Source: Deroplatys truncata
Taxonomy: Eukaryota > Arthropoda > Insecta > Mantodea > Mantidae
Direction of reading: 5' to 3'
Assembly: GCA_030765065.1 (NCBI GenBank)
Contig: CM060985.1
Location: 6,882,001-6,946,000, forward strand
Length of the DNA: 64,000 nucleotides
This document shows, one piece after another, positions 24,329 through 48,102 of the stretch. Under the pieces are notes generated by a model. The model had not been told where the DNA came from. It did not search any database and saw only the letters and a list, made by a program, of their open reading frames with translations. The translations under genes were made by a program, and so were the position numbers. Numbering within the stretch: the first letter of the stretch is position 1; each line of letters opens with the position of its first letter.

Positions 24329-24595
24329 TGACTAATTTTGAAGATTTAGAAGCTAGTAACAGTGATGTGTCATAATTTAAGATAAAGAGAGTTGAGGGTT
24401 GTTTCACTACATCACTAAAATATTCTTACTTGAACGCGTTTCGTGAGACGGCTTGTTCCCATCGTCAGCATGTTCTCAAGTCATACATGTTGAGAACATG
24501 CTGACGATGGGAACAAGCCGTCTCCCGAAACGCGTTCAAGTAAGAATATTTTAGTGATGTAGTGTAACAACCCTCAACTCTCTTTATCTTAAATT
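24329..24595. mobile_element. 267-bp palindromic PLE derivative with 11-bp target duplication
   Basis: ACTTTTTAAGT flanks both sides (24318-24328, 24596-24606). The insert is two lineage-1 PLE 3' ends in inverted orientation around 24470-24482: left arm TTGAGGGTTGTTTCACTAC...GAACGCGTTTCG and right arm the inverse ending CAACCCTCAACTCTCTTT. The left side carries a longer tail (TGACTAATTTTGAAGATTTA). Each arm has one hammerhead-like motif (24421-24470 minus; 24501-24540 plus). It encodes no protein. Confidence 0.9.
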
Positions 24596-24599
24596 ACTT

Positions 24600-25630
24600 T
24601 TTAAGTATATATACTTTTTTTTAAGCATGAATATTTTAAAGTGCAATATCATATTTAACGCCATAATATTAAAATCTGGAAAAAATACAGATGGAATCTG
24701 TGACATATTTTGTTTTAAACCTACCAATATCACAATGGGATCTTCTTTAGAAGAATACTTTTTAAAAATTTTATTTATGTTAGCGCATAGCGTTTCAGAA
24801 CAAACTACTGCCGCAGCGATGCGTTATGCAGTAGGCTATCACTTCCAGTGTTTGGTATAACTTAGCAGCTGGAATCTGATTTTCTATGAGGCTTCTCTCC
24901 ACTGTTTCATCTTAAATGTTACATTGCTCTCTGATAATGAGTGAACTGAAGAAACGGAGCTATGACTATTGCTACCAAGCTGAAATCATTAAGTTTAGTT
25001 ACTCACAATATGCTTAGAAAATTAAAAATGCAGAATGTAAATTTGTCATTAGACCTAAAACTACGTAATGCATGTTGAAAAAAAAAATCCCAAAGTACCA
25101 CCCACTGCTGACAGTGATTGTGTGCTACAAAGTACCAATGCTGTGAATAATCAAGAAGTGGTTTTGAATGTAGTAACCATTTTGAGGCAAGATAAAGCAA
25201 TCTGAAAGTGATCTCTGGCACCTTAGAGCTAAATTCATTTATTCCATTAACCAATAATAACCAGATAGTATTTATTTGAGCCTCAAGGGAAGAAACTGCA
25301 CATTTAAATTGTAGTTAAGTTGCCTCCCATAGGATAAGATTGCTGAAAGATCGACTGTTTCTCACTTGTATGCCACATGTGAACAAACTAGTGCAACTAA
25401 AGCGCTGTGAACAATTGATAAGGCCGCTGCTATTCAACAGCCTCACCTGCTACGCACTGCTTTCTAAGTTATTTTATTTAAAATTAACTATACAAGATCC
25501 CATCTTTGTTTTATGCAAATATATACAAAAAACTACATGGAATTTATTTATAATTTTTATAGAAACTTAAACATGCAGGTTAATAGGGATATACACTTTT
25601 TAAATGTTTGGATTCTAAAATCCTGATGTA
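24600..25630. other. intronic stretch, nothing recognised
   Basis: AT-rich intron without motif-bearing reading frames or repeats recognised. Confidence 0.45.
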
Positions 25631-25638
25631 AATTACTA

Positions 25639-27757
25639 CAGTAAAATCTTATTTAATGAATTTCAGAGGAATTAAAATTGTTTCCTTTGAAAGGGGTTTT
25701 CCTTAAAAGGAGGTTGAGCATTTAATTGCCAGAAATAGTATACAAATCACATTTTTTTTAAGTATTTTAATAGCAAAACTTATCATTTTGAGAAATTTTA
25801 TATCATTATGTACACATGTAATACTAAGAAAGGAATTTAAAGATTAATGAATAAAATGCAGTAAATTAAACAATTAAAATGCTACAATAGTTATAAATTT
25901 ACACTGCATCATGGGCAGCCATTTGCACTTAATCTACAACAAACAAAATGAAAGTGGATATCAGATTTACTTATATGTGAATGCAGACTGCTAAAGTTAC
26001 TAATCTTCGTTTGCTTCCTCCTGCCTAGGTATCTGACACTTACAATCCTGTGATTAAGAGCATAGGTACCATCTCAATCTGATTCCTCTTCTCCTGATTG
26101 CATAGCTCAACAGATGCTTCTGAGTGCCCCTCTGTAGCATCTGCATACAAATTTATTCCTTATCACATCGGTGCAACAACCAGCAATGCTGTATGGTTCC
26201 TGGTGCAAGTAACTGCCTTACAGCCTCAAGTACATTCAAATGCAACAAGGCTTTCCTGTACTTTGCTTTAACAGAATGAATAATTCCCAAATCTAAAGAC
26301 TGCAGTTTGCTGGTAAAAAGATTACCTTTATTTTCCGTAAGAATGATGGTTCTCATAAATTAAGTTTTATTTATGGACGCTCTTTAGCTGTCATGGTCCT
26401 TAGCGTCCCATTCTATATTGGGCATGAAAGACAGATAATTTTGCTCATAGGCCTCTTTATTAGCTTGAGGTTGTTTTACATGCCATAAATCTACGACACG
26501 GGACCACCAGCTTTACTTCCCTTCCGAAGGAAGCCATGCTAAGGATTTTCATGCCCAAAAAAATCCATTGCCCTACCCGCAACCTCAGGAACAGCATGGT
26601 AACTGCTACACCACGGAGGACGACAGTGGATGAGCTTGCGCACCTGTCTATCACCAGAGCAATCTTTCTTCCCTAAGATCCCATTTGGTACCCAGGCTTC
26701 ATAGATATTTAAAAAATATTTCCAAAGTCATCCATGAACTCTTCTGGAAATAGTATTCACGGAAGTGTATGAGTGTTTTTGAAACACCTTGGGTTTTTTA
26801 ATTTTCCTATGATTAGCAGAAGTAACTTTTCAGTTGCGTACAGCAGAGCTGTGAACCTTGCTTTGCTTTTTTCACCGCAAACTGCACAAGTCTTGTTGGG
26901 TGGCAAGTTGAAGAACACTCCCATTTTGTCCTTTGTATTGAAGCCACGGAGGAGATTAGGCAATGGAGTCATCTTTAACATCTGCACTTTCACAGTGCAT
27001 GCTTTGCCATGAAAGGTTATGCTCGTTCTTGAAATGATCAAGTGCAAAAAAGTTGATCACGTGTAAAGTTAGCGCTATTTGGTGAGCTTTTTCTTTTAGG
27101 ATGTTACATTTCATTAAAACTTTTTTCATTTCTTCAAATGGAGAGCTGCAAAAATTCTTTCACTTCTTCACAGCGGATCCACGCTTTACTTCCGCGGCCA
27201 GAATAGCATCTTTCTGTTTAAATACCCTGTGAAACATGGAAGGAGCCAAATGATATTTCTTTGTCATAGAAACTGCGCTGTTGTTTGCCACGTCTTGAAT
27301 TATTGTAATCTTGTCATGGATGGTAAGCAGCAATTATTTCGATTGAGAAACATAAATCACTATCACAACTTAACATGCTGCCCGGGAACTAAGTGGAAAT
27401 CAAACAGAACTCGGAAATCACAGATATGAAGTTACAAACAGGTTTGAAAATGTGATTGCAGAGCTGCCAACTTTTGCAGTTTAATGTGAACTAAAGCAGA
27501 ACACAAAGTGACATGCAGAGGCTAATGAATTTGAAAGCATCCAAAGAGGCATAACATTGCCCATTACAGCAGAGGAGCATTAACTGTATTCTGAAAATCT
27601 TAAGAAGAAGCTGAGCGATCATAAATTTGAGAAAAATATTGTCATTAAACACAGGATTTTCATTGCAGGTTTAAATAACATTACACTTATAGCAAGGGCT
27701 TCCAAAACTGTTCGTTAAAAATGGAATTTGTTAAAAGCAGGCTCATTGTTTTACTAT
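25639..27757 (-). mobile_element. pogo/Tigger-like transposon, near full length (copy 2)
   Basis: The low-coordinate end CAGTAAAATC is preceded by TA, and the high-coordinate end is TGTTTTACTA, the expected pogo-type CAGT termini with one base decayed. On the minus strand the order is: HTH text (SMTKKYHLAPSMFHRVFKQK near 27240), CENP-B-type domain (ILKEKAHQIALTL near 27090), catalytic region (CGEKSKARFTALLYATEK, GKLKNPRCFKN near 26800-26880) and SKLQSLDLGIIHSVKAKYRK near 26300. Many stops and frameshifts. It contains a 208-bp block (26444-26651) absent from copy 1 at 2705-3577. Confidence 0.8.
26444..26651 (-). mobile_element. 208-bp SINE-like insertion inside Tigger copy 2
   Basis: Comparison with the empty counterpart around 2797 shows a clean 208-bp block between GCTCTGGTG and CAAAATTATC. 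On the minus strand it contains TGGTGTAGCAGTTACCATG and GAGGTTGCGGGTAGG, resembling tRNA-type A and B boxes. No obvious target duplication, so deletion in copy 1 remains possible. Confidence 0.5.
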
Positions 27758-27999
27758 AATTATAATAAATATTAAGTAAAAGATTACATATTAAGCTTTG
27801 CATTGCACTTTATAACATAATTTTATCACCTGTGAGATATTCCATTTTAAAGGTAGAGAGTTGCGGCACTTTTCACAAATTGGATTGCACAGTATTGCGG
27901 ATTAAACAAAAGAATTTAAAACATAATTCACTTTGTTTTTGTAATCCATGGACAAAATTTGAAGTGAATTGAAGACATGATGATTAAATTTTGTGAAAC

Positions 28000-29110
28000 T
28001 TTGTGCGACTTGACGTGGAATGAATCAAATACAACAAAGATTTTCAAGAAAATCCCTCGCCCCAAGTACCTTCTACATGTAAAATTGTAAAACTTTTTAT
28101 TAAAATTACAAATATTTAAGATGTTTACATGTCAGTTTGATAGAGATATTTTTTGTTGGAGTTCTAAAAGGTTCATTGTGCAGCCCCATTGTAAAGGATG
28201 CCTTTATTGTTTCCCAAAATCTGTTCCTTGAATAAGTTGCAATGTTTTCAAAGCCTGAACAGAGAAGCTGGGTTCCAGCATTGCAACAAAGACATGTCAC
28301 TCTCCATGTACAGACGTTAGTGCAAGATACTTGACTGGTGCCTTCGACAGTGTTTCACCCCTGAAGGACCATTGAAAATTTGGAAAGCTGGGTTTCGTAT
28401 CAGTTAACGGACATGCAGAAATGCAGCAGTATGAGGTGGAGGAGTTAATGCTTATCATTACCTGGCCCAAATCTTATGAACGACAGCTTAAATGCCAATT
28501 GGACAAGTGGCAGACCTCCACCAATGAGAAGGCAATGCTGATTGGGATGGTACCAGAACGTTAATGTTCACTTTTTAAAAACAATCTGCTAGCAGCTGTG
28601 AGAACAACTTCATAGATAATCCACCCATTGTTCTGCACGACACATACAGCAGGAGTTGTGACTCTATCACCTTCCAGATTTAAGTCCTTGCAATTTCAAT
28701 CCCATCCCTAAGATGAACCTTCTGCTCAGTTGAAGATGTTTTACAGGCAGTGTTGACGTGATCCGCATCGCTGGTGACTACATTGAACGTCTACAAAATT
28801 TAGAACCATGTGTATGGAGAAATAAAATAGTTGCCAGAATTAACAAACCACCCCTTGTACATGCCAATCTTGCATTTTCTTGAAGTTCTCTTCGTTTGTA
28901 TCGAAGTTCATATGATTTTGTATAACTCAAAAACCACAAGTAGTAGATAAAAGCTTAGCACACAAAGAACATAGATTTGTTTAAATGTGAGTCTAACACA
29001 TCAGATTTATTTCTCTACCTACTTCATGTTAACGTTTACAGAAACACTTTCATTACACATCTCGTTGTAGATACAAGAGGAAATGATAGTCAGATGTTTA
29101 AAAAGTGGGT
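28000..29110 (+). repeat. unclassified 0.8-kb family, interrupted copy
   Basis: Matches begin at 28030 (AGAAAATCCCTCGCCCCAAG, ATTTAAGATGTTTACATG) and resume at 28880 (TTGAAGTTCTCTTCGTTTG, GTATAACTCAAAAACCAC), ending near 28985 with TCTAACACATCAGATTTATT. The middle (28150-28850) is foreign and includes a possible Tc1/mariner relic. Confidence 0.55.
28590..28810 (+). mobile_element. possible Tc1/mariner transposase relic
   Basis: Broken plus-strand text includes TAGVVTLSLSRFKSLQFQSH and, near 28750, RIAGDYIERLQNL, resembling the catalytic-domain end and the GDYVE-like C-terminus of mariner-type transposases. Weak evidence. Confidence 0.35.
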
Positions 29111-29391
29111 CACTATATACTAGCTTTGAAATTCCACACTCTTTGTATGAACATCACGAGAGACAAAATAATGTTGACAGCACTTAAAACAGCACATGGA
29201 AAATTGCAACAAATAATAAATTCTTTTGACATTTATATTCTGTTTTAACTAAATGTACATTTCCGTTATCTCCAGTGGTTTATGAAGCTATAGAATATTC
29301 AACTGTTTTCATGATACAGAAACGGTGTTAGTAACTTTTAATGTCAGACCCAAGGCTTCGTTAAGAATGTTGTTTAGAAAATGTAAGATAC

Positions 29392-30120
29392 TATGAGGCA
29401 GTATTTTAATACCTAAATAATTTCAATTGTATTATATAATAAGTAAATTCAATAACAGCCCACCTTGAAACAATATGTATGTAATAATTATTTAAAATGT
29501 ATGTAACAGTCATTGCATATGCTTATTTTTATTGTAAACATGTTTAATAATGTTATGTGAATACATTACATACTTTAATAATGCAAGAGCTGTGAGAATA
29601 ATAAGTTTTAAGTGACTAACAATGAGGTAATAATGAGGTAACCTTGTAGCAATAATGAATTTGAGAATTTGAATGTTACTAGTCATGATTACAGCAACGA
29701 TATTGTAAATTATATAACAGTTTAAAATTAGCCAATCCACAGCAAAGTAAATGCAGATATTCTATTGGACTAAAATTAGCCAATCAGAGACTTGAGATAC
29801 CGAAGCTTACGGGTTTAACGGTTGAAATAATGTTCAGTTGCTGGCAAACCTTGGTAGTGACCAGATGGAAGATGTGTTCTCTACACAAATATTATGTGTG
29901 AATCGTAAAATATGTCTACGCGTTAACTAAGTGAAAGTATTAAAGAATCTCACAGCTCTTAAAAAGTGTAGTGCTTTATTAATAATGTGCAAAGGATAAA
30001 ATAAAAAGAAGTGAATTTAAAAACTTAAAATTTGTGTATGTCTACAATTATTGTCATACCGCACCCTGCCTAAGAGATACATGACTCTATAAACATTACT
30101 GACACAGCCGAGGCAAATTC
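29392..30120 (+). repeat. dispersed direct repeat, copy B
   Basis: Collinear with 7055-7800; see that entry. The shared peptide-like text on the minus strand (TRFGRRFEF near 30290) lies just beyond its end, as in copy A. Confidence 0.6.
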
Positions 30121-30584
30121 AAACATAAATAATATATATAGAAGCAGTTCTTAATAACAAAGTTAAATAATATAGTGTAAAACTTGGAGTGTAACAACAT
30201 AAAATACATATTAAAATCACCTTCTCATACGTAGCAGCATATTGCATAACAACAGTAACTATTACATAATCAACAAATTCAAACCGACGCCCAAAGCGTG
30301 TTGCAAACTTCTTAAACAAAGTAAACTCCAAGAACAATACTTCAAGTTGGCTTCCCAAGCGAGAAGCTAATAAATAATTTACATAAAATATATTACGTAA
30401 CAAAACATCAATCTCAACTATGTCTAAGTGGTCTGTTGATAACACAGCTATATTTTATAAGAAGTGTCAATTTTAGATAACAGCTAGACAAAAGAATAAT
30501 GTTCAAGACTGCCACATATCTACAAGCAGAACTGTTAACAAACGTCCCCACCATGTGGTAATTCTAAAAATGGAAACATTTAAA

Positions 30585-30845
30585 ATCTCTTTAAAAAAAT
30601 TTAAAAAACAATCATTTTATAATTATTATTTTCCAATGAATCTGTACGGCAAGAGACATCTAGTTTAATCAAGGGACTTCACAGGCCATTCCCAAAAAAT
30701 TCAAAATCAACATTTTATTAGTCATGTAAATCCTAAAACACATTGTATTTTAATGAAAATCTTACAGGCTAGTTTGGGGGGGGGAGATTTTTTTCACAAA
30801 TTCTGAACTTAATCTCTCTCTACTTCAGTAGAGTAGATACACATT
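30585..30845 (-). repeat. fragment of the unclassified 0.8-kb family
   Basis: GACTTCACAGGCCATTCCC, AAAATTCAAAATCAACATTT and GGCTAGTTTGGGGGG are the reverse complement of the central family blocks. Confidence 0.6.
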
Positions 30846-30849
30846 TTGT

Positions 30850-33800
30850 TAGTAGCGAAATCTTTATACGCTGGCTTTGTATGAGTATCCAAGTATGTCT
30901 AAACGTTGCATTATTGAAAGTTGTTACATTTAAGTTGATGACATTGCCTCATACTGGACTATATTGATTGCTTTTCCTGTGCAACATTCCATAGACTCCT
31001 GTGTCTAAATGAAAACAATGGGGGAGGTACTCATTTGACATGCAGCGTTAACTGAGTTGTGAATGAAGCAATAGCCTGACCACTCGCAGCCATTACATTT
31101 ACCAAAATCTGTGAGTCCAGCAGAAACTAATCAGACGTGAGATAATACATCTGTTTGTTTGTGTATACGCAAGTCAAACTCGTAGCTTACAGGTATACTG
31201 TACAATTAATTTCCAGATATGGATAGAAAAACCTTTAAAAGAAAATTTTCGGCACAAAATGTAGTTACACAAAATGGGAAGAAAAGAAATAATAACAATA
31301 GGGGATACATTATCAGGATAAAAAGGTCGCTGCCAATTGGAGGATGTCAAACAGGAACAATTGGTTATATGTGTTTATACACAGAACAAGCTACCACCTT
31401 TACTGAGTATCGAGAAATAGTGGTACTGTCCCACCACTAAATAAAACAATAGTGACAAAGAAGAAGTAAATTGTGATAACTAAATCAAATAGGTAGGTAC
31501 CCTAAAAATGAAATGGAAATTTGTTCTGAAAGAAGCACACACAGAAACACAGCAGTTAATACAATTTTGTGACATGCCACGTTTAAACACAGAGCAATGA
31601 TAAATAAGACAGATGGAATGCCATATATAACATTGTGTACTACTTTAATCTAAATGATCGGCATACGGTCCTTGGAGCCATCCATTGCAGTCTTGTTGAA
31701 GCTCTTTGTGATACTTTCTTGTTTCATGTGGAGGGCCACCTTTACTAAGAGGTTGTAGCCCTCCAGGAACTGTGTTATTGTTATTTCACTGGTTCTCCTA
31801 AACAAGCTAAGGAAGAGAGAAGAGCTCCACACTGCAATGCCATCATTTCTTAGTTTCACACCATAATCTAAGCTTCTTGGTAAATGTCTTGGGCCACAAA
31901 ACGATCTCTCTGTTCCCTCCAGTAATGAATCAATTTGGGTCCTAACTCTCTTCCCTCCATAATTAACTACTTCAAGTTTAAATTTTGTCGTGTAAGTATT
32001 CTTCTTTGTTCCCTTTGTGTATAAGTGCTTAATGCTTTCAGGACAGGAAAGACTGAAGTTTAAAACAATTTTCATAAGGAGAATAACAATTACTACGTGG
32101 CACAGCAAGCACCTATATGAGAAGCTGTTCCAGCAACTCTAACAAACGAATTGTACTTGGGGGGGGGGGGGATTATGCAAGTAAATACGGTATACAGTAT
32201 TTAAAAATGAATAAACAATTTTATTTGACAAAAATTGTATGTTTTAACATGATTTTCTCTATCTGTTACGGTTTACCACCTATACACACTGTTTGGTATT
32301 TATCTTAGTTTTTGTTTGCACACAGTGAAATGTTGATATCAAATTGTTCTATAGAAAGCTGGTAGAGTAAGTTAAACAACACAACCAGATGATTACTGCT
32401 ACTACATGTTTTCAAAGACAGATGTTTCCTTCCCAAGTTTACATTACACACGCCATTATTTTGGTTGGTTAGCACTGACAAAGTGTGAGCTACGTTCAAG
32501 AGGAGTTCACTTTGCAGAGAAACTGTAATGTGTGACATCACGTTCATGTAACCCTCGCCAGGTAGGGCTATACACTGAAATCTGGTAATTGTTATCAGTG
32601 ACATTGGATTTCTGTGCACTAACAATATCTAAATAAGCTCTATAATTTAAAAAATGTGCAATGAAGTTAGAGGAGTGGCTGGACATTATATGTGAGCCAC
32701 TTAACGGCCGACATGTTACCCTCAATTCCAGAATGTGAAGGTTACATGTTAACAAGCAGCGGATTTCCTTTCCAAGAATATTGAGAATGAAAATCGGTTT
32801 CCAGGATGTACAACACAGCTTGTTTAATTGCAAAAGCAGTGTACAGTACAACCAGTGGATGTTTGCTCATTGATGTGACAGTATTTAGTTTCATGGTGGC
32901 AGTGATTGTCCAATTACAACTGCTAACTTCAAGCTCTTACCTTTTCTTCGTTAGACAACATTCCGGTCGTTGTAATTTCTTTTGCAGTATACAATCATCA
33001 TTTTGTGCAAATGCTCAAGGTGTAAGTGTATCAACTAACACAAGTGTGTATGCTGGGGAGATTTCTTCAGGAAGCAACAATGTCAACATTTCTTTCCAAA
33101 ATAATTTTTCAAGTTTACTCTGAACTGCTGTTGATCTAATGTGCAGGATCCCTCAGTTTTTCCCTAAATAGCCAAATTGTGTATATTCCCATCTGGTACT
33201 GCTACCAAGCAGGCAGCCACTGAGGAGCCTATGAAAACATAGCGCTACCTCCCATCACCCTACAATATTTCCATCAAGGGTAGGTACAGACCAGAGTTAA
33301 GTTGGTACAGCTTTCCTCAATTGCTAATGTGAAATGAGCAACGGCTTCTTTCCTTGGGACATTTTTTTATTTTTTGTACTATTTCTTTTATTTTGGAGTA
33401 ATTTTTATTAGTAATTTCCTTTTGAATATTATATTGGTATTTTTGTTCTATATTAATTTTGACATTTTTTAGTTTCATATCTAGTCCACAAGACTTTATA
33501 GTATAACACTGCAACCTTTTTGGCCAGAAAGTCTGCAGTCTCTCCCACATGTGCTGGTATCCAGTAATATTATCTGTTGAAATTTTGTTTGGAGTAATAT
33601 ACAATAAGATCTCACATCCTTAATATTATAAGATTCATCGTTCTATTGCTTGAATGGCAAAACTGAGTCTGTGAGAACTACTTTATATCAGTCCTGTAGT
33701 ATATCTGTTGTAATGCAACAACTTCACCATCAAAATTTGTGGATTGTCTAGGCAATGTAAAATAATGTGAAAAGTATTTACAGTATATACCACCTCCCAC

Positions 33801-33860
33801 ATTATTTCTCAATTTATCTGCAGAACCATCTGAACGTTCATAGTATTATTTTGTCACTAA
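30850..33860. other. intronic stretch with unrecognised open frames
   Basis: A 152-codon stretch on the minus strand (31650-32108) and a 73-codon stretch on the plus strand (31219-31440) are open but show no family signature I can name. The first contains TTKFKLEVVNYGGKR, faintly like the N-terminus of pogo-type transposases. A G-run of about 14 lies at 32159-32172. A lysine-rich 95-codon minus frame at 33317-33604 is also unrecognised. Confidence 0.35.
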
Positions 33861-33869
33861 TTGTTAAAA

Positions 33870-34560
33870 TAATATATTCTCCCTAAGAGAAACACTAGAC
33901 AGAGGAAACAGTGTATGCCTTGGATTTTTACACTTGAAAGGAGCATTTGACTCAATACCTAGAGAAGAAATCTGGAAAACTTTAAAGAATAAGAGGATCT
34001 CTACAAATCTTATTAAGGCAATACAGTGTAGCATGAGCCGAATGGACAAGAATCCGAGGTTTTTCTGAGGAGTTACACAGGGAAAGTTTAGCGCATTACT
34101 ATTTATAATTATGATGGATGAAATACGGAAAATTTGTAAAAGAACAATAGTACTTGGATACAGCTTGGGCACAATGATATTGTACTGATTACAAACAACA
34201 AGAACAGAATGAAAGGAGCAGCTGCCCAGGACTGCAATCGAATACAGCTAAAAGTAAAATAATGCTGTACAAAGGGAAGATGCAGAGGTAGAGGAGTGTT
34301 GATAAGTGAACATGGGAAAATAGAATCAGGAAAGCCATTTCTGTTTATCATCAAATTGCTGTTTTTAAAACAACAATATTACTATATGCAGCAGAAACAT
34401 GAAAATAAAATAACAGCTATGGAAACAAGATATGTGAGATGAGTTGTGGGGAATGGTTAGAAAAACAGCAATAAGATCCTCTCTACAACTTAAATGGTGA
34501 GGATAAGAAACACAGGAATGAAATTGAAATGTGCAGTATAAAAGTTTACATACAAGCACA
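33870..34560 (+). mobile_element. non-LTR retrotransposon, reverse transcriptase relic
   Basis: Plus-strand text gives LKGAFDSIPREEIWKTLKNK, then GVTQGKFSALLFIIMMDEI, matching RT motifs with F-D and the LSPLLF block (the usual R/PQG-VLSP is degraded to TQGKFSA). The catalytic F/YADD region is reduced to LGHNDIVLIT around 34165-34190, reached through a frame shift. Dead copy. Confidence 0.65.
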
Positions 34561-34959
34561 GAAGAAAATGAAACTTAATTCCATAAGCTGCGATGTCTAA
34601 TGGTAGTGACATGCGTTTCCTAGGCAATGAAACCAGGCTACTTGACATCACAAAATAATACACAGCATCTGGAGGATGCTATCAGTGTCTGTGGGAAGGG
34701 AGGGAGGAATGGCTCTAAGCTCTATCATCAACCAGCAAATGAGTCTAATATGGCATGTTTCCATGGCGTTTTCTATAACTTGATGCCATGGAGGAGACTG
34801 ATGGTTCTGAGAAGTGTGACTGGAAAATACAAAAATCTATCTGCAGAATCTGCATTTGTTTTAAAAATGTCAACCTATTCAATCTGCCAAGTCAGTACGA
34901 GAATAACAATAAAGCTCGAATGACCAGATCTCCTGAAGATTCAACAACAAATGGCTGCG

Positions 34960-35990
34960 AGAAAGAGGAACATTTTGCTAACTTGCTCGGCACATCAGTT
35001 CGATGACCTGGAACTTTTGAACATAAAAGTTGTCTTCTTACTAGCTAACACTACGAGCCGTCTGCAACCATTGGATCAAGGAATAATCGCCTCAATGAAG
35101 CATAATTACCGACACCGACTGGTTAAGGCTGCCATCAGTACAATAGAACTACAAGAAACAGTTCCACATTGGAATGTACTGCAAGCTATCTGCTGCTTGG
35201 GATGAAGTTGCAACACACACCTTAACTGTTTTAAGAAGACCTGGACAGCAACAGGAAACCAATGATCCAACATCTGAACTTATAATGTGGATACAACCAT
35301 GGATTCTGATAATGCTCTTCTACACGCTTGGTGCCCTCTTGTACCGTCATTATGGAAGAATGGACGTAGGTAGACAACAACATCTGCACTGTTGAAGAAC
35401 CAGTCATCTGCTGATGCTGCAAGAGAATGATAATTGACTAATTTTGAAGATTTATTGACTAATTTTGAAGATGGATTGGACATCTGGGAAAAAATACATA
35501 TTGTCAAACACAGGAATCACCTAATGAATTTCGAACTGCCGCCACCCAACAGCCTTTGGAGGTTCATCAGCCCAGCACCAGAGAACACCACTAACCACAC
35601 ACATCCCCCAGACGATGACCGGCAAAAATCAGTTGAGAGAAAATGCTGACGATGGGAACAAGCCGTCTCCCGAAACGCGTTCAAGTAAGAATATCATAGT
35701 GATGTAGTGTAACAACCCTCAACTCTCTATTTTAAAAAAAGAATGATAATTCTTTACTATCATCTTCTGAGGAGGAACATAAAGATACGACACTGTGACC
35801 CCACGCTGAAGTTGCAGCTGTCTGCCACTTCTGATGTCTCCATGGCATTTCAGGCTGCCCTGGATGTGGTATCTTCAGAGAGTGCCATAATATTAAGACC
35901 AACGGTCCGCCAACAACAATTAATGATCTTTTCAAATTATAGAACTGAAATGTGTAATGGATAAGAGTTGTAACTAAAACATGTGTTGCA
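34960..35990 (+). mobile_element. pogo/Tigger-like transposase relic (different lineage), split by a PLE
   Basis: LLNIKVVFLLANTTSRLQPL and DQGIIASMKHNYRHRLVKAA near 35010-35130 form the classic DDE_1/Tigger segment; upstream CSAHQFDDL is the usual DNCSAHP region with the aspartate lost. The C-terminal continuation EEEHKDTT...FQAALDVVSS resumes after 35752. A 304-bp PLE insertion (35436-35739) interrupts it. Confidence 0.75.
35436..35739 (+). mobile_element. 304-bp PLE insertion with 12-bp target duplication, lineage 1
   Basis: AGAATGATAATT stands on both sides (35424-35435, 35740-35751). The insert starts with a short tandem of GACTAATTTTGAAGAT, which is the inverse of the lineage 3' terminus, then carries the last codons of the PLE ORF (MNFELPPPNSLWRFISP), a hammerhead-like motif (35646-35682: CTGACGA, T, GGGA/TCCC, GAA + palindrome ACGCGT + T) and the terminus CAACCCTCAACTCTC. 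It lies within a Tigger relic, so it is younger than that copy. Confidence 0.92.
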
Positions 35991-36098
35991 ATTAAAACTT
36001 AGTGTTAAAAGAACAGTATATTTAAAGTGCTTCTTGAGGTTATTGTTTGTTGTATTATATAACTCACTAATTCAATAAGTACAATACTGTTCCAAATA

Positions 36099-37274: not shown

Positions 37275-37279
37275 TAGTA

Positions 37280-37820: not shown

Positions 37821-37825
37821 CTTAC

Positions 37826-38054
37826 CTGTAATTCTGTCAAACATCAACTCCCCTCCTGCTTTGAAAACAAGGTGTTTGATAATTTTGACAATGGTTTTCC
37901 CCTTTGCTTCCTTCACAGCTGTGTTGACCATGTAGTTGATGACCAGCTGGGTGTGACCACATGAAACATCAGTTTTGCTGAGCTGTTTATGTGCCAACTT
38001 CTCCAGGTTCTTTACAATCAAGTCCACAAACTTTGGTATCAGCAGGGATGGAAT
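37826..38054 (-). CDS. MYBBP1A: MYBBP1A exon, MFDRITG block
   Basis: It follows a GTGTTACAG acceptor and encodes about 76 codons: IPSLLIPKFVDLIVKNLEKL, CGHTQLVINYMVNTAVKE and KHLVFKAGGELMFDRITG. The closing helix and FDRIT/FDKIT motif match the end of the first ARM block of vertebrate MYBBP1A. It enters in phase 0 after 53268-53462 and leaves in phase 1 before GTAAGTC. Introns of about 15.2 kb (upstream) and 13.8 kb (downstream) flank it. Confidence 0.88.
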
Positions 38055-38393
38055 CTGTAACACAACAAGTACTTTAAATATTAATTATATTTTCCTACTG
38101 GGGAAGTATCAGAAATATCATCTTAAATTGGCACAATGTTCACTTTCATTTGTTTGGTTGATATAGCATACTGGTACCTCAATGTAAATCTCAGCATTAA
38201 TGCAAATATTATTATATAGGTATAAAGTGCGTTATATTCTAAATGTAAAGGAAGGCATGCAACATTGCAATTTAGATGTCCGAAGTCATGTGGTACCAGG
38301 CAGAGACATCTCCAGGGCTGAATATGACAACAGAGGTAGGGGAGTATGGGAGGGGGGTGCGTGCGTGTGCATGTGTGTGTGAGAGGGAGGGAG

Positions 38394-38394
38394 G

Positions 38395-38441
<47 letters not shown>
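38394..38441. repeat. (GA)n microsatellite
   Basis: About 45 bp of GA repeats following a G-rich, GTGT-rich lead-in. Confidence 0.95.
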
Positions 38442-38443
<2 letters not shown>

Positions 38444-38444
38444 A

Positions 38445-39400
38445 AAAGTGATAGAGGAAGGCCAGCACAGAAAACGGAAGTTGAATCCGTCATGGAACAG
38501 AAGTGTAGAAGAAACCAGAGTACATATTCTCATACGATGCTAATGTGATCAGGTAATCACATTATTGCTTTATGATATAGTAGGAAAAGTAGCATCTTTA
38601 GTGGGGTGTATAATTAAAATGGAGCTCCAGCAATTAAATGACATACAATTTACTCATGGGTGAACTTCATGCTTCAGATGGCTGAGTATGTGAAGGAGCT
38701 GTTAGCAATTTAGAAAAGCAACATACGATGGGAGGTACAGCTTGATAAATAGGCCCCATAACCCAGTGAAACAGTTGTGGAATAGAATTCATGGCTAGCT
38801 GCAAACGAGTGCGAAAATAAAGTACAGTTAAATTGAACTTCAAGTTTTTAATTTCGTCTCCTATAACCACTCCTGAGATAAGAGTAAAAACGTATAGGCC
38901 AACACAGAAATGTTGTAGGGCATTGTTTTATAGCAATTCACCACCCACACCAGAAGGAAAACAGCGAGCAGTCCGTCTCTGTTGTCATATTCAGCTGATC
39001 AAGCCTGGTAACGCATGGCTTCAGGCATCTAAATTTTAATGTTGCAAGCTTCCTTTACATTTACCATATAACATACTTTACACCTGTATATTCCCACTAC
39101 AGGATGTGGAATTTAAACATCTCATAATTAATGACAAACCTCCAGTTATACTAAGACTGTTGTGAAGATCACAGATGTAAGCTTGCTGACATTATTACTC
39201 GCGCAAAACTTCTGGAATCGTGACCTTGATTGCCAGCCCAGCTGCCGAACCTAGGAATGGTTTATGTTCAGCTTAATCAACGAAAGCGATATAACACCTT
39301 TGCTTACTCACAGTGGTAACACATACAGTCTGCATAGAAAGTGTCTGCATCTGGTTGTAATTTTAAAGAGACCAGTATCTAAATAGTACTTACTTTATAT
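38445..39400. other. intronic stretch, nothing recognised
   Basis: No coding segment, terminal repeat or RNA gene recognised on either strand. Confidence 0.4.
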
Positions 39401-41060
39401 TTGTTATATTTATAACCATGGCTCCTACGTTTTCAAAGTTGAGTGCTAAGTTGTTAAACAGTCAAAGTAGGAAAATAATTGCAAATGTCCTCGACTTCAT
39501 GAAGCAAGAAGCAGAGATGAAGGAAGAAAATATATGTTCGTCCGAGTTCCACAAAAGCCTTAAGAGAGTGAAAGAAAGAGTAGTCAAAGCAACTGGTGTT
39601 TCACCGAGTTCCGTTTCCAGAGTTCTCAAAGATAAGAGAAAAAAACATATGGATGAAAGAATGCCATTTGACACGCCTGGGGTCTCTAAACGTATTACAG
39701 AAATAGACGATTTCGAATGCGTCATTCGGCGCACGATTCACAATTCCTATGTGGAAGAAAAAACTGTGCTAATAATAAGCAGATTGCTCATCCAGCTGAA
39801 ACACAGCAGAAACTTCCAAGGTGGTGCTACAAATCTCAGAAAAATTATTAAAGATTTAGGGTTCATGTGGAAGAAACCGAAATCAAATAGAAGAGTTCTA
39901 ACAGAAAAGCAAAATAAATAAATAAATAAATAAAATGAAATAATAATAAAATAAAAAAATAGAAATAAAAATAAAAAGTAAATGTTCTCATGATAGCTTA
40001 GTCGGTTAGAGCAACGGCACGGAAAGCCTAAGATCTGTGGTTCAAATCCCGGCTATGGCATTTAATTTTTCAGTCTGATTCTACCTTTCCAAATGACTAA
40101 TTTTATATGTACTTATATCAATGTGTACTTATATCAGCATCAATTTTCAAGGTGGTGCTACAAATTTCAGAAAAATACTATAATGTATGAAGATGAGTCA
40201 TACAGCATCTAAAAGTTGGAGTGACGATAGCGAATTAGGTTTGCAGGCACCTGTTGCCAAAGGGCAAATACTTATTATCGTTCATGCTGTTGGAAAGATC
40301 GGCTTTGTTCCAAATGCCCTTCTTTTACAAGTCGCAACAAACAACAGGAGATTTTCATCAAGAAATGAATACAGAAAATTACATGAAGTGAATCAACGCC
40401 ATGTTGATACCTAATATGCCTGCTGGATCTGTTCTGGTCATTGACAATGCTTCACAATGCGTCAACACTCAAATTCACAAACCACCTACCTCAACTTCCT
40501 TGAAAGAAGAAATGAGAGCTTGGTTACTTAGACATAATAAAGCTTTAGATGAAAGCATGAGAAAAACAAAGCTATATAACTTAATTAAAGCCAACAAACA
40601 GCTTCAGAAGTCATACATACTTGACCAGATAGTAATACATCGTCATAATGTACTTAGACTGTCATATCGCCCAGATCTAAAGCCAATCGAATTAATCTGG
40701 GCTGATATCAAAAAATGGGTGGCATGCAGAAATATCACTTTTAAATTAAAATATGTGGAGCAGTTATAACGCCAGCAATTTGCTGAAATTGGAAGGCCAG
40801 AATGGGAAAATGTATGGCGACATGCTGAATAAATTAAGAATCATTATTCCGAAAAATACGGAATTGCAGAAAATCAAATAGAAATAATTCTCATCCAGGA
40901 TAATGGTGCAGAAAGTAGTGAAGCAGTGATGACGGCAATAATGTGAGTGATTCCGCAGAAGAGGAAGGGTTGTTAGATGTGGAAGAATTGGAGGCAATGA
41001 TTGACAGCGTTTTTTATATTAAGCGCTTTTTACAGCGTGGATTTTAATATACTGTATATA
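39400..41060 (+). mobile_element. Tc1/IS630-like transposase pseudogene interrupted by a tRNA-like sequence
   Basis: A 167-codon N-terminal frame (39418-39921) has a helix-turn-helix (ATGVSPSSVSRVLKDKRKK) and the FECVIRRTIHNSY...FMWKKPKSNRRVL linker typical of an insect DDE_3 family. After a tRNA-like insertion the catalytic part continues in broken frames: MYEDESY near 40185 (first D), SVLVIDNASQ near 40425 (second D) and YRPDLKPIELIWADIKKWVA near 40670 (third, E). The C-terminus WENVWRHAE and an acidic tail close it near 41030. Stops and frame changes show it is dead. Ends not mapped. Confidence 0.8.
39985..40066 (+). mobile_element. tRNA-like sequence, probably a SINE head
   Basis: TAGCTTAGTCGGTTAGAGC is a good A-box/D-arm and GTGGTTCAAATCCCGGC a good B-box/T-arm, separated by an anticodon-arm-like stretch, but the acceptor stem does not pair well. 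It follows an AAATA-rich run (39908-39978). About 80 bp downstream, at 40147-40180, a near copy of 39817-39850 of the transposase occurs, so the interruption duplicated about 33 bp. Confidence 0.6.
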
Positions 41061-42900
41061 ACTAAGTTTATCAGCGCAAAGCAGTGCATAACCGTTGTGG
41101 ATATTTGACGATAACTGTCCCACGCACTCTTGCAGCATGGAGACGACCGGTCACCACCTGATCTGGTAAGCAACTCGCATCATAGCTCTCATTAAGATTT
41201 TCACGTGTCTAGAACTGTTGCGCCGATTATACCAAGATCTTGTGTCCGAAACATTCACACATGAGAAGGCTCACAGTGATACCATAATTATTGGCAGGCA
41301 GATATAAGTAACGTGTCAGAAATGATTAATTTGCTGATAGAGCTAGAGAATAACAAACAAAAGTCTGAGGTAGAAATGCAATGGAAAGTTCACATTTCTT
41401 TGAGCAAGCGGCACAGTTTCATAGAAATGGAAATCAAAATGAAGTTAGGGCCATTTCCTAGACCAGAACCAACACAATGGGAAAGGAGAAACAGAAATTC
41501 AGACAGAGGTAGGCATCTTCAGGTTATGGGAAAATCTGATGAGGAAATCAGCAGTTTAGAGGTAGACATAACTCAAATGATGAATATTGAATTTTGAAGT
41601 AGATCGTCTAGACAATAGGACAGAAATAGAAGTGGGAGAAATTCACCAATAGAAAGAGATAGGGTAGAAGCAACAGAAATAACAAGGCAAATGGTAGGAA
41701 ACAGCTTAAATCAGATAAGGTCAAAATAACAGTTTAGCAGGAACAGGTGCAGTCAGATGCTTCTTTCGATAATCAAAATCTGTGGGCACAATTTTGTTTT
41801 AAAATATGTGGAAGATAAACGTGTGAAAACTGGAATAGGTAATAAGTGCAAGATTATAAAAATTAGGATTAAGCAGAAAACAGTGAATGTAACAAAATTA
41901 GAACCAGTGCTTTGGCCAAAATACTCAAACAAAGACAAAATGAAAACAAACTGTTGGAAATTTAAATATATTTACAATGTAAAGAAAACTAGCCTAGTAA
42001 ATAATCTGGTATTAGGTGTATGTAAGCATAAGTGCTATACAAGAGGAAATTGAAAGAGTTTCCAACAGGGGATCAGATAAATTTTATTCAGGCAAACATG
42101 TACACTCTTTTACTATTTACAATAATAAATGAATGTAAGAGGGCATTATGAACCATAATTATTGACGGGCAGATATAAATAATTGAAATAGATACTTTCA
42201 GTATATAATGTAACAAGTTTGAGTTGAAATGTTTGTCTGCAAAGATGAAGGTAATTAGGAACTCAGGTTAGCGAAAATCATTAGGTATTCAGCTGAAGTA
42301 GCCAACGCATTAGCTAAACACTCTGCGAATTCAGTTAGCTTATAAGTTTGGTACGTTTGCAGTCACGTAGGCCAATTCTGAAATTAGAGAGGCAAAAGAA
42401 ATTCTGAGAAAGTGAAAAACTAAGTTCGCAACAAAGTAAGAGATGTGCATTGGCCTGGGAAAGGCAATAATATATAGGCGGAGCTAAAATTAATAAATGT
42501 TTGTACAATTGAAATCAGAGAGTTATTCCGGCAGCACGTACTGCTCATGTGACTAAGATTTTGCGAGAGGTCTAGCCGATAAGCATCTTAGCTTCTTGAT
42601 ACTACGCAAGTTCAGTTGTTACAATTTCATACATTCAATTATCAATATGCCTGAGAGAAAGATCTCATATCCATACAACATGAGATGAGACAATGAGCTT
42701 CAAACTGTGGTATCACTGATCAGACAAACATTACTTCATTCTTCACCAGCAGTCCAAGCAATGACTGCTAGAGGGTAGTGTTCCTCCAGCAGGTGACACT
42801 GCTAGACCAAAACCATTGACACAGCTTTGCTGCAGACAAACCTCCACCAAGACAATATGCCAGCACACACTTCTTCAATTGAGATCACAAAGTTGCTCCC
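41060..42900 (+). other. possible retroelement debris, unrecognised
   Basis: Short plus-strand open stretches (41313-41597, 94 codons, charged; 41757-42053, 98 codons) may be retroelement gag-like remnants, but no protease, RT or integrase motif is visible. A repeated phrase (ATAATTATTGGCAGGCAGAT near 41285; ATAATTATTGACGGGCAGAT near 42155) suggests an internal repeat. Confidence 0.3.
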
Positions 42901-42904
42901 AGTG

Positions 42905-43145
42905 ACTTCTTCCTCTCCCAAAATATGAGAAAAAATACATATCGTCAAACACAGGAATCACATAATGAATTTCAAACTACCACCACCCAGCACCAGAGAA
43001 TACATTCCCCAGACAGTAACCGGCAAAATTAGTTGGAAACAAGCTGACGATGGAAGCAAACCGTCCTCCCGAAATGCATTCAAAGTAAGAACCTTTTAAT
43101 GATGTAGTGTAACAACCTCCAACTGTCTTCATTTTAAATTCAAAA
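42905..43145 (+). mobile_element. Penelope-like 3' end, lineage 1, diverged
   Basis: Matches 35450-35739: AAAATACATATCGTCAAAC, a degraded MNF-LP-P peptide, CTGACGATGG, CCTCCCGAAATGCATTC and GTAACAACCTCCAACTG. In the hammerhead-like motif the stem III palindrome is ATGCAT instead of ACGCGT, still self-complementary. Confidence 0.75.
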
Positions 43146-43439
43146 AATAGGTTTAGCATGGATGTGCACAGGAGTAATATTTTTAAAACAATTAGTAGTT
43201 TTTGTACAGAGAGATGCATTATGTGTGAAATGGTTAAAAGATGGATGGAATGAAAAACGCTGGCAGATCCTATTAGAAAGTGTAAGAGATAGTACAGAAA
43301 ACCAGTGGTTCAAGTATGTGAGAGCTAAGATGCATGCAATGAGGGAAACAAGAGATATAGTATGGCCACTTTAGCGCTGTTAATTTCCATAGTAACTGAG
43401 GCTATTCTGTTGACAAACTTATGTCTGCTTATTAAAACT

Positions 43440-43830
43440 AGGAACAACATCGTCAGTTTTGTCCTCAGCTCTTTTCTTGATCCCAGGTGCTTAGTTCTTT
43501 ACTCTTCCAATTATTTTAAGTTGTGTTAAATGACCAAAAGTGATGCGCTACAGCACACTTGAATTTTATGCTCCTCAAATGTTCTTTCATCGTGACCTCT
43601 AAATTTCTTTTGGCTTTTCCAAAGTATATTTTATCACAATTTTGTCAATACATTTGATAGATACCCAAAATTGGGTTTTTGATCTTTTGTTTTTAAGGGG
43701 GTTCTTGAGGCCACATTTATTTTGTGGCATTAGCTTTATTTTCAACTACATGAAAAATGTTCTCAAACTTCCAAAAAAGTTTTGGATGAAAGGAGAATTT
43801 GCTGTAGTTAAGTTTAAGTTTCTCTAAAGA
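43440..43830 (-). mobile_element. Penelope-like endonuclease relic
   Basis: The minus strand reads GIYQM then, across a stop, KIYFGKAKRNLEVTMKEHLR near 43600-43660, a degraded GIY-YIG endonuclease (YIG changed to YFG), followed by CAVAHHFWSF. No 3' terminal region. Confidence 0.65.
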
Positions 43831-44039
43831 GGTGATTACTTTTGTGTTTACCAATCAGTTCAGTTCAGCGACATGATGTATTGTATCTGTCTTATGAATA
43901 TGGCGTGTTGCATTCAACTAAACTGGTTACGCCAGTCAACCTCATGGTCTTTAAGTAACTTCAACTGTGAGTTTGCAAGTGGGGATGACACAACACTTGA
44001 GAAATGTCAAACTGAAGTATATGACCAAGTTGTTCTTCA

Positions 44040-45990
44040 CCAGCGATCTGCATCATTTACCCTCTGGCTTCTTCCCAATATGAAGTCTGTAAGTTATCAC
44101 TTTTAAGGCCTTTGTGAGATGTTTGTTCATCTTCTTCACAGAGAGTGCACTGGGGTGTAGATAGACATCGTATCTTGTAGAGGTGTTCTGCGAGGCAATC
44201 GTGGCCAGTTGCCATCCTAAATAAGGCCACTGCACTCTTACTTGGCATTTTTTGTATATCAACTCTATCTTTAATATTCTTATAATCTCTATCTTCTTCA
44301 TCAAGTCTCTGCTGTCTTTTAAAATGTTGCTTAATGTTATTTAATTGTTTATTTATTTCTATTTGTCCTACAGGTTTTAATTCTTGAATTCCACCTTTCT
44401 TTGCTAATTGATCTGCAAGTTCAATGCTCAAAAGTCCGACATGAGCTGGGATCCATTGTAGAGTGACATGATTTTTAGTTTCAACTGCTTCTTTAATATT
44501 TCTTGTTGTTTTACTATTCCATCTATGTCTGATAAGATGACTATTTGTTCTTTAGATTAGATTAGATTAGATTGTATTCTGTGAGTTCACTAGCAGCCAT
44601 AAAGACTTGTGAACATAGAACATGTCAAGGAAATGTACAAAAATTATATATAAACATAAATATTACATAGAATATGGAACATTTGAAATAAAATACAAAT
44701 ACTATATGCGTGTTAAGGAAATGTACAATAAAGTTACATATATACATAAATATTACATAGTATACAGAACATTTAAAATAAAATAAGGACATATTATATA
44801 CAAAATGAAACAAATCAAGTATGGTTCTGTAATGCTGCTTTTATAGCTGTTAATTCTCCATCATAGTGGTTTGATGTTTCATCTAATGTTAGATACTGTG
44901 CAACAGTATACTCCTGCACCAGCATTTTTTTTATTGATGAGGGATCCATCTGTATATATTCGGAGCCATTCTTTTTCTAAGTATCTTTCATTTTCCGTAG
45001 CTATTGCTGTGGTTCTCATTTCATCTGGTATATTGTTTTGTTTGTGTATTGTATATATCAAGTCATTCTGATATTGTATATCAATGTATTCTATTGGACT
45101 CGTTACCTCTGTTGCAATTATATTTGTTATAATTATATTCTTGTATTTTAAGTTATTAATATATGTTCTGAAGCTTATTTGAGTTTTTAAATTACTTATA
45201 GTATCTGCTGTGTGGTACCACTTGTATCTGTTTCTATTGACTTGCAGTTTCTGTGCTAGAGTAATTGCTTTCAACTCATGTTCCAATTCTATAGCCATGT
45301 TTTTTGTGAAGCTTTGTAGTACTGTGATTGGTGTTGTTTTTACAGCTCCTGTTATTATTCTTAATGAATTATTTTGTGAAATTTCTGGTTTACTTTTAAG
45401 TCTCTTGTTTACTGTTGCTGGTAGTTCTCCTCCATACAATATGTTAGGTTTTATATGTATTATATTCCTGCTAAAAGTTTTAAAATGTTCTGTTTGTTAA
45501 TTTTATTTGTTACATTGTTTACATGTTCTTTCATTGATAGCTTTTTATCTAATTCTATCCCTACATATGTAGCTGTAGTTTTTTATTGTTGATTTGCAGG
45601 CATATATTTTCTGTTTTATGCTGCATTGTGAATAGTTGACATTGAGTTTTTCCTGTATTTATTTCATATTGTTGCTATTAGTTCACTGTTCTAGGATTAT
45701 GATTGTATTCTCCATTGTTGTTTGTAGTTTTTTTAATGTTTCCCAGATCTTATGTTCCTTTCTGAAGTCGATATTACCATGTCATTAGCAAACATTCCTA
45801 CTTGTATGTTACCTATTTTCTTTAGTACATCTACTAGATTGTTTATGTTCGTATATATATATATATATTGAACAGAATAACACTTGTAACAGATCCTTGA
45901 GGTAGTCCAACTCTCATTTGTTTCCATTTAGATGTGGCTGTTTTATATTGTACTGCAAACCATCTTTGGGATAGGAAGGTTTGAAACCAG
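44040..45990 (-). mobile_element. Jockey/I-like non-LTR retrotransposon, RT end plus RNase H
   Basis: Reading down the minus strand: RMRVGLPQGSVTSVILFNI-type RT text near 45900 (across a TA-repeat and frame change), then VGMFANDMVIST near 45800, the FADD catalytic box with the first D changed to N. A 186-codon frame (44879-45439) follows, containing LRIITGAVKTTPITVLQ and the RNase H opening RIYTDGSLINKKNAGAGVYC. After an inserted block (about 44550-44840) come LSIELADQLAKKG near 44420 and the C-terminal CTLCEEDEQTSHKG near 44160. The copy is defective and shares its 3' end with 10340-10680. Confidence 0.82.
44550..44840. mobile_element. insertion inside the non-LTR element, TTAGAT-edged
   Basis: The block interrupts the RNase H region. 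One edge is a TTAGATTAGATTAGATTG run; inside, a roughly 75-bp segment (GTCAAGGAAATGTACAA... to TTTGAAATAAAATA) is tandemly duplicated with divergence. It is probably a LINE or SINE tail with a short simple-repeat end. Confidence 0.5.
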
Positions 45991-45994
45991 TTTA

Positions 45995-46840
45995 GCATGT
46001 TCTACCTTTTGGTCATTAAACACATAAAGAAGCCGTTAGAACTAAGGACTTGGAAGAGCATTTTTATCATCAAGAACAGGTTATGAATTGTCAATACCCT
46101 ACGATTGATGACATCAATGATTAACCAAAAGAACGGAGGGCAGCACAATATCAAGTAGGATCAAACCGTGCACAGGAACATCAGTCGACCCACAATAGGG
46201 AAATAGTGGAGAGAAAATGAGTTAACATTGTAACACTGATGTCACTTGATTTAACATAAGGCTATCCTGATTCAATTCAATGATAAATCTGCACTCGCAT
46301 TTTTAATAAAAACGATGACAGTTTTAATCCAGTCAACGACTAGCTATTGTCCTTTTTCCTGGGCTCTCATCAGGACTTCAGGAGGAAAATCCTCTTCCTT
46401 GGGAATGACTTTCTGCTTAAAATGTTATGAACAGTGGAAGTTTCCTGCCATCAGCAAGCATAGTGTACATATTGCTGCAGTCGTGGTATCACATGGCATT
46501 TGATTGGTGTTTCCTATTTGCAAAATCAGACATTCATACTGCTTACGTTGACATCTGGCATATGTTGCACTATTGTGGTACACAAGAAAGCATGTTTGCT
46601 TTGAAATTCTGCACAATGCCAATCTCTCGCACAATATTCATTGCTTGAAGCTGCACATTTCTGTGGTCACATCCTCACTTCTGGATACATGGCTGGCAAT
46701 GTAATCCCTTACATAAGATCAGCAGCGAGTGAAAGTACACTGAGGTGTCAACACAAATACATGTGTAGGACTATGCAAGTCAAAAGCAATGCCTCCAACA
46801 TAACAAATTCAAATAAAACATGCACCCCCAATTTTCAAAA
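45995..46840. other. intronic stretch, nothing firmly recognised
   Basis: Minus-strand CCTGATGAGAGCCCAGG at about 46377 resembles the start of a PLE-type terminal motif but lacks a GAAA partner. No coding domain recognised. Confidence 0.35.
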
Positions 46841-46844
46841 AATC

Positions 46845-47825
46845 TGATGTGTTACAGTCAGATTCTTTATTAGTGGGTATACAAACTATTCTTACTAAAC
46901 CTTATTTTTCTATCTACTTCATTTTAATCCAAATAAACCTTTGCACAAACAGCTACATTGCACATTTCATTATAGATACAAAGGGAACAGCGATAGTCAA
47001 ATTTAAAATAAAGGGAGTTGAAGGTTGTTACACTACATCACTAAAATACTCTTACTTAAACGCGTTTCGGGAGACGGCTTGTTCCGATCGTCAGCATGTC
47101 CTTCAACTCTCGTTATTTTAAATTATGACACATCACTGTTCCTAGCTTCTAAATCTTCAAAATTAGTCGATAGTCAAATGTTTAAGAACTGAACGCTATA
47201 TGCTGGCTTAAAATTCCATACTGCTTCCATGACATCGCGAGAAACAACTGAATACTTAAGGGAATGTGACCAAGTAATGAACAATTTGTACCTTTATTAA
47301 CAGTTATCTCAGAAACGCCTTATGCCACAAAAAAGTTATTTTAAATAAATTGTATGCTTTAAAGAGCTCTACATGTTTTGTATAGTATGTTAATGTTTAT
47401 CAGTTAAACAAAATTCCTTCCAAATGAAGAGGACTTCACAGACTATTCCCAGAAAATTCAAGACATACATTTTATTTGTCGTGTAAATATCCTTAATATG
47501 TGGTATTTTAATTAAAATTGTCAAGAGCCATTTTTCAGAAAATAAAAAATTTCGAAAATGTTCCATGTAAAGGGTAGTTTGGGGAGAGGGAATTTCCTTG
47601 AAAATCTTGTCACATCTTTGGAAGGTACTAAACTTAAATAACATGTTTGGTATTTATCAACTTTTCATTTTTGAGTTATGCTATTTACACACACATACAC
47701 GCACAGACCTTTTTCTAAAAGTGCTAGGTTTTGGATTCAGGGGCCCCCGGAGAAAACTGAGTATCAAATTTTTGAGTCGAATACAATACCTTCTCTACCT
47801 ACTATGTACATGGTAGAGAAAGTAA
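46845..47825 (-). repeat. unclassified 0.8-kb family, near-complete copy with PLE insertion
   Basis: Minus-strand copy running from the hairpin terminus (inverse of CTTCTCTACCTACTATGTAC...GGTAGAGAAAG at 47785-47820) to AAAATCTGATGTGTTACAG at 46845. Removing the 165-bp PLE derivative and its duplication leaves about 0.8 kb, taken as the family length. Confidence 0.75.
47003..47167. mobile_element. 165-bp PLE derivative with 12-bp target duplication, lineage 1
   Basis: CGATAGTCAAAT on both sides (46991-47002, 47168-47179). The insert holds the minus-strand 3' region with hammerhead-like motif (47056-47094), then at once the opposite-strand terminus CTTCAACTCTCGTTATTTTAA and the tail ending AAATCTTCAAAATTAGT. 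Most of the inner arm is deleted. No coding sequence. Confidence 0.9.
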
Positions 47826-47943
47826 AAAGGTGCATGTGGTATACAAGTTATTACAGCAATGTGCTTAGTGGTTCATTAGAATCAAAGAAAACAATCAGCT
47901 CTTACACAGTCGTGAACTTGGCTAATTAAAAAAGAATACTGTT

Positions 47944-48102
47944 TTTATTTAAGGTGAGTCGGAATTGTTACACTAACATCACTTAAGTTTACTCACTTAA
48001 CATGTTTCGGGAAAGTGATGTTAGTGTAACAATTCCGACTCACCTTAAATAAATTCAATACACATCACTGTTTCTAGCTTCTTTTCATTACAATATATAC
48101 GT
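47944..48102. mobile_element. 159-bp PLE derivative with 12-bp target duplication, lineage 3
   Basis: AAGAATACTGTT on both sides (47932-47943, 48103-48114). The insert is an inverted repeat of the lineage-3 terminus: AAGGTGAGTCGGAATTG... on the left and ...CAATTCCGACTCACCTT on the right, joined at TTTCGGGAAAGTGATG, so the hammerhead core is partly lost. The right arm extends with CACATCACTGTTTCTAGC. Confidence 0.9.

Follow-up and report, generated by a model that had tools for sequence, protein, structure and literature searches.

Palindromic insertions in the window

The 64,000-nt stretch of the mantis Deroplatys truncata analysed here (positions 6,882,001 to 6,946,000 of contig CM060985.1, assembly GCA_030765065.1; hereafter the window) contains three small palindromic insertions, i1 (24329-24595), i2 (47003-47167) and i3 (47944-48102), made of inverted ends of a Penelope-like element (PLE) and each flanked by an exact 12-bp target duplication. 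They were found where an earlier sequence-only reading had placed them, with duplications given as 11-12 bp; the exactness was confirmed, and the 11 bp of i1 can also be read as 12, one base being common to the element end. Among 2000 random placements of the same geometry, a match of at least 12 bp was found in 5 and of 6 bp or less in 1990. An unguided inverted-repeat search of the window recovered the arms of i1 (24373-24479/24490-24596; 107 nt, 98% complementary) and i3 (47937-47984/48013-48060; 48 nt, 94% complementary); i2, which has a short arm, was not among the results of this search, whose minimum was 35 nt. The arms of i2 overlap at their join by 3 nt (CCT, by eye). Rfam microRNA (miRNA) precursor models MIR6201 (24433-24536, E 7e-09) and MIR6145 (47954-48043, E 5e-06) also match i1 and i3, below their gathering scores; these matches, likely hairpin artefacts, could mislead annotators by their low E values.

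To judge from its sequence, the source of the palindromes is a PLE, because the copy at 16303 has a GIY-YIG frame (16554-16991) that matches PF01541 above the Pfam cut-off (28.4 bits, cut-off 22.6) and is followed by the lineage A leader. The PLE copies in the window are truncated, and further features of the group were found, namely a tail as an optional 30-40 bp extension, inverted repeats and short target duplications. A hammerhead-like core with a stem of at least four pairs occurs at eight places in the window, with 0.06 expected in shuffled sequence, the label referring only to the motif and the spacing of its stem. The Rfam hammerhead models gave no match in the window, whether at their gathering scores or with E relaxed to 10, and the exact core pattern had no match in the viral-contig and genome-contig collections.

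With positions counted from the ATG in this motif, the alignment of the window copies gives two recurring outer ends in lineages A and B: S, at roughly +85 to +90, and T, around +133 to +135 (+127 in one copy). Some of these ends were placed by eye, where the alignment extended into flanking sequence. S is the inner and T the outer edge of the PLE tail, which thus spans the interval of about 45 nt between them. The description of the insertions as two inverted PLE 3' ends in two lineages holds for the inverted pair and for lineages A and B; the halves are not identical, one stopping at S and the other at T, and a third lineage, C, is also present, with a palindrome at about 48743-49004. The T end is on the left and the S end on the right in i1, and the reverse in i2, i3 and the lineage C palindrome. 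One S end and one T end were found in all five window insertions with a flush repeat, the weakest repeat being the 8 bp of the insertion at 48743. Beyond T, the similarity of two lineage C copies (score 21) is within shuffles (95% level 22) and yet collinear, so the right boundary of this palindrome stays uncertain. At 35436-35475, in the lineage A copy of that position, the inverted tail tip stands twice in tandem, with lengths of about 20 and 17 nt, as though reverse transcription had begun again at T.

Table 1. PLE-derived features of the window and flanking target duplications.
Feature	Position	Strand	Ends, arms and motifs	Flanking repeat
i1, lineage A palindrome	24329..24595	-	two hammerhead-like cores; T arm 24329-24479, then filler, then S arm starting at 24490	TACTTTTTAAGT, exact
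i1 left target duplication	24317..24328			second copy 24595-24606
i2, lineage A palindrome	47003..47167	+	S arm 47003-47102, T arm about 47100-47167; one core	CGATAGTCAAAT, exact 12 bp (script)
i2 left target duplication	46991..47002			second copy 47168-47179
i3, lineage B palindrome	47944..48102	+	left S arm, right T arm; core cut short	AAGAATACTGTT, exact 12 bp (script)
i3 left target duplication	47932..47943			second copy 48103-48114
Lineage C palindrome	48743..49004	+	S left, T right; right boundary uncertain	TGTTAATG, 8 bp
Lineage A copy	35436..35739	+	S end right, inverted tail tips left; no palindrome	AGAATGATAATT, 12 bp
Lineage A PLE fragment	16303..17190	-	5'-truncated, T end left; GIY-YIG frame 16554-16991	
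Lineage B inverted pair	19277..21732		S ends on both sides, foreign sequence between	
Lineage B copy	52857..53014	+	T end right; 10-nt inverted T tip left (by eye)	
Older lineage A copy	42923..43140	+	S end right	
Lineage C PLE fragment	5300..5795	+	hammerhead-like core at 5664; upstream GIY-YIG-like reading frame by eye only	

Palindromes across the genome

A search of the assembly (4.29 Gb, 818 contigs) for i1 gave 613 candidates, of which 40 were scored and 30 loci read, 29 of them distinct (L014 and L015 are one place). All 29 i1-like loci are palindromes of two inverted copies of the PLE leader of about 155 nt, with T/S outer ends in 28 and T/T in one (L014); the absence of S/S says little, because S/S copies would score lower. 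An exact repeat of at least 11 bp was found by script at the insertion in 21 of the 29 loci, one of 8 bp at L007, L013 and L029, and one of 7 bp at L009 and L016. At L008 the script chose a longer non-abutting match, a flush 12-bp repeat being seen by eye, while L011 has only an imperfect repeat, by eye, and L014 none. The listed exact duplications range from 8 to 15 bp, and the 25 exact repeats listed, among them that of L008, have an A+T content of 76.8%, compared with 63.9% in 200 kb of other genome DNA. Few PLE ends were found in 20 random genome samples of 10 kb. Two further insertions with a 12-bp repeat seen by eye are a T/S insertion of 2.6 kb (L032) and one scarcely longer than the lineage B tail (L048:5534-5595).

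The first base of the T arm is the A of AGTTGAG (AGTTGAGAAC, sense) in 21 of the 29 loci and lies within three columns of it in 27. For the S arm, the first base falls in column one or two at 20 loci. The loci were picked for likeness to i1 and are hence biased towards full arms. In 9 of 10 body-linked copies, the same A follows directly on ATC and is preceded by coding context; in the tenth, L052, there is a palindrome join. The TCAGTT at the inner point fits the arthropod initiator, and on this ground the point is taken to be the putative 5' end of the RNA, that is, a transcription start. Also, TCTCAACT was found in 20 of the 29 loci, followed by C in 12 of those, and CTCAACTCAAC in 6, the latter form looking like slippage at the template end.

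The two arms of the 29 palindromes share nine non-CpG departures from the consensus, whereas re-pairing the arms 2000 times gave 0.94 on average and never more than 6, and the mean arm distance is 2.87% within palindromes and 3.41% between them. Unless gene conversion has homogenised them, the two arms of an insertion therefore derive from a single RNA or a single source copy. Arm divergence from the consensus is 1.8% in palindromes and 3.0% in ten body-linked copies, which partly reflects the choice of loci. The fillers between the arms are patched from arm sequence: in the 15 of 29 loci whose fillers were neither short nor unclear, delimited by eye, the longest arm-derived pieces sum to 96, against 62.1 in shuffles, none of which reached 96 in 1000.

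The joins themselves are nearly all different, with 28 junction strings among the 29 loci, L017 and L020 sharing one next to different target repeats. Over the whole genome, the exact junctions of i1 and of i3 occur once each and that of i2 twice. The other place with the i2 junction, L061, was read over 150 bases and stops at S rather than T; it has a different flank and no shared derived variant, looks independent of i2, and the i2 junction was dropped as evidence of replication. Replication of the palindromes as units through the junction, which the sequence-only reading had suggested, is not supported by the single i1 and i3 junctions and the 28 strings in 29 loci. The count of identical junctions that it had named as the check gave mixed results, with unique i1 and i3 junctions and an i2 junction recurring without shared variants on the one side and, to the contrary, one string at 10 places. 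This test is also weaker than had been supposed: were the junction to lie upstream of the point where the RNA starts, each insertion would make it anew.

A sample blind to structure was drawn with an exact 23-mer of the S edge, which has 418 places in the genome; the first 100 gave 26 close pairs. All of these are head-to-head; 18 (tiny pairs) have gaps of 30-181 nt, none has a gap of 182-381 and eight have gaps of 382-2266. As two full leaders amount to 166 nt, 5 of the 18 tiny pairs (159-181) fit two nearly full arms. Tiny pairs are common, with a sharp upper size edge, and in most of them one arm or both are shortened, as in i2 and i3. The leader with upstream coding context has 598 exact sites, the first 100 of which include 20 head-to-head pairs (start-to-start 90-4119), 2 direct and no tail-to-tail pairs, and a second leader pattern has 802 exact sites, with ATC upstream in 57 and absent in 43 of the first 100. 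The idea of a recurrent non-coding class is supported in the sense of inverted PLE ends from single insertions (18 tiny pairs of the 26) and not supported in the sense of a family copied through its junction.

Origin of the palindromes

Here it is proposed that the palindromes are probably independent two-ended target-primed PLE insertions, and not a family copied through the junction. In the presumed order of steps, a staggered cut of about 12 bp would leave two 3' ends at the target, and both would prime reverse transcription of PLE RNA, presumably a single molecule per insertion, at internal start sites. As a rule one end would prime at S and its partner some 45 nt further 3', at T. Both complementary DNAs (cDNAs) would run towards the RNA 5' end, which many in lineage A may have reached at the AGTTGAGAAC point, and some would stop earlier (i2, i3), before a putative joining enzyme linked them via short overlaps, with filler patched from the arms. 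Longer inverted copies would arise from RNA with coding sequence upstream of the leader, and every palindrome would be a separate product. According to Frangieh et al. 2024 (PMC11167929), the purified PLE protein of Anolis cuts and extends both target strands and starts at two adjacent internal RNA sites, the tail being the interval between them. The S and T edges match these two start sites of reverse transcription, and the palindromes fit as in vivo products that keep and join both cDNAs.

Several observations weigh against this proposal. The 29 loci were selected for similarity to the T/S palindrome i1, and other pairings do occur, namely S/S (19277), probable T/T (52857) and T/T (L014), none of them with an accepted duplication. 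In the Anolis study, no difference in start site was seen between strands (PMC11167929). In the blind sample, 13 of the 18 tiny pairs have no room for two arms that extend to the fixed inner point, and L026 and other loci have sequence upstream of that point. A lineage B insertion in L004 stops inside the hammerhead-like motif, with no duplication seen. The shared variants could have another origin in gene conversion between arms, and the junction shared by L017 and L020 was counted at 10 places, two of which were read, although slippage together with a 3-nt AAC overlap can explain it.

A different and rather doubtful explanation is a PLE-dependent non-autonomous family, in which a short T-arm RNA would be copied in trans and the junction remade at every insertion. 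Besides the hammerhead-like motif, the T arm holds both start sites and what is presumed to be the start of the RNA. The sequence from leader to T is complete within three columns in the T arms of 27 of the 29 loci, the coding context ATC is missing upstream of 43 of the first 100 exact leader sites, and tiny pairs outnumber long ones (18 vs 8) among the first 100 of the S-edge places. The frequencies at column 100 also differ, with C 50 and T 8 in palindromes and C 4 and T 6 in the ten body-linked arms. However, these body-linked copies carry the same leader, one of them (L058) being identical to the palindrome consensus over 153 columns; apart from the leaning of column 100, no clear diagnostic difference was found between the arms of palindromes and the ten body-linked arms, and the coding context is present at 598 exact sites. 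In its strongest form, to which a similarly low probability is given, the leader from the fixed start to T would be a minimal self-sufficient PLE parasite with its own RNA start and a hammerhead-like fold, with two reverse transcriptases at once on one RNA, always inserting as an inverted pair and rebuilding its junction every cycle. The junction of such a parasite would lie outside its RNA, and unique junctions therefore do not exclude its replication.

Self-priming, by which a single cDNA would fold back and be copied into its own complement, is improbable as the origin of the palindromes. It would account for the variants shared by the arms and for the i1 arms meeting at the same point around a 10-nt spacer, and it was proposed for Adineta PLE palindromes (PMC3846280). 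A self-primed copy must nevertheless halt before the target at S, yet S ends the copy at 35436, which has no palindrome at the join; in i2 and i3 one arm is much longer than the other inside, and the target repeat on the far side requires a second primed end. A foldback or MITE-like (miniature inverted-repeat transposable element) DNA transposon family copied as such by a transposase is very improbable: inverted repeats with target duplications and one junction at 10 places would suit it, but the two ends differ (S vs T), the exact duplications vary from 8 to 15 bp and are not constant, and the i1 and i3 junctions occur once, with 28 junction strings in 29 loci.

Each of these insertions seems to preserve the two cDNAs of one event, and both priming sites, the cut and the join are recorded within a few hundred bases. 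Such insertions make it possible to test whether a single PLE RNA is copied from the two ends of the target, with a different start site for each, and they offer a simple origin for inverted pseudo-long terminal repeats (pLTRs).

Other features of the window and comparison with known systems

For the fragment at 16303, a candidate duplication was rejected because the match is poly-A, and for the pair at 19277 because it falls inside the arm; none was found for 52857..53014. An apparent terminal-inverted-repeat insertion (20170-20970) is nested in the lineage B pair, the interior of which (19277-21732) also holds tandem repeats unlike PLE coding sequence. The window further includes a tRNA-like sequence at 39987-40060 (28.8 vs the Rfam gathering score of 29), possibly the head of a short interspersed element, remains of a non-LTR (long terminal repeat) retrotransposon at 44057-45496, where the matches to RNase H and zf-RVT are weak and do not reach the Pfam cut-offs, several nested inverted repeats at 49161-52016, probably other transposons, and a long minisatellite-like stretch at 53187-56057, open in several frames on both strands.

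Plant and animal retrozymes are small, non-coding and presumed to depend on other elements, as are the palindromes with their hammerhead-like motif; retrozymes have direct-repeat hammerheads and circular RNA, whereas the palindromes have inverted arms in which the motif is read through. The likeness to retrozymes that the sequence-only reading had drawn is not supported, the arms being inverted and not direct repeats: all 26 close pairs are head-to-head, and the coding-context sites gave 20 head-to-head and 2 direct pairs. As i1-like copies pass through the whole motif, self-cleavage is not needed to explain the arms, and hammerhead cleavage was rejected as the cause of arm ends at these loci. 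In LINE-1 twin priming, the second target end serves as a primer and gives an inverted copy of the same RNA, with a variable second priming site; the palindromes are similar in the second-end primer and the inverted copy, and differ in that both outer ends are fixed.

Among PLEs, Pen2a_Av of Adineta vaga is described (PMC3846280) with inverted pLTRs, one side 37 bp shorter and the tail on one pLTR, target duplications of 8-10 bp and microhomology at the joins. The palindromes are alike in the inverted shorter pLTR, the one-sided tail, the short target duplications and the microhomology joins; Pen2a_Av-type insertions keep coding or captured sequence between the repeats, whereas the palindromes are bare leader pairs, many in number, with a fixed inner point and patched joins. 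Titles and the starts of abstracts in the open-access literature gave no description of such palindromes, which cannot show that none exists, and the part of PMC12910113 consulted makes no mention of them. Similarly to Poseidon of Anolis carolinensis (PMC11167929), the palindromes have two internal start sites delimiting the tail and A+T-rich targets, and may reflect cutting and extension of both strands; the Poseidon results are in vitro single-strand products, with no joined two-ended products shown in the parts of that study consulted and no strand difference in start site. As far as the literature was searched, what is new relative to these systems is the bare form in quantity, the S/T split within insertions, the variants shared by the arms, the fixed inner end and the patched joins.

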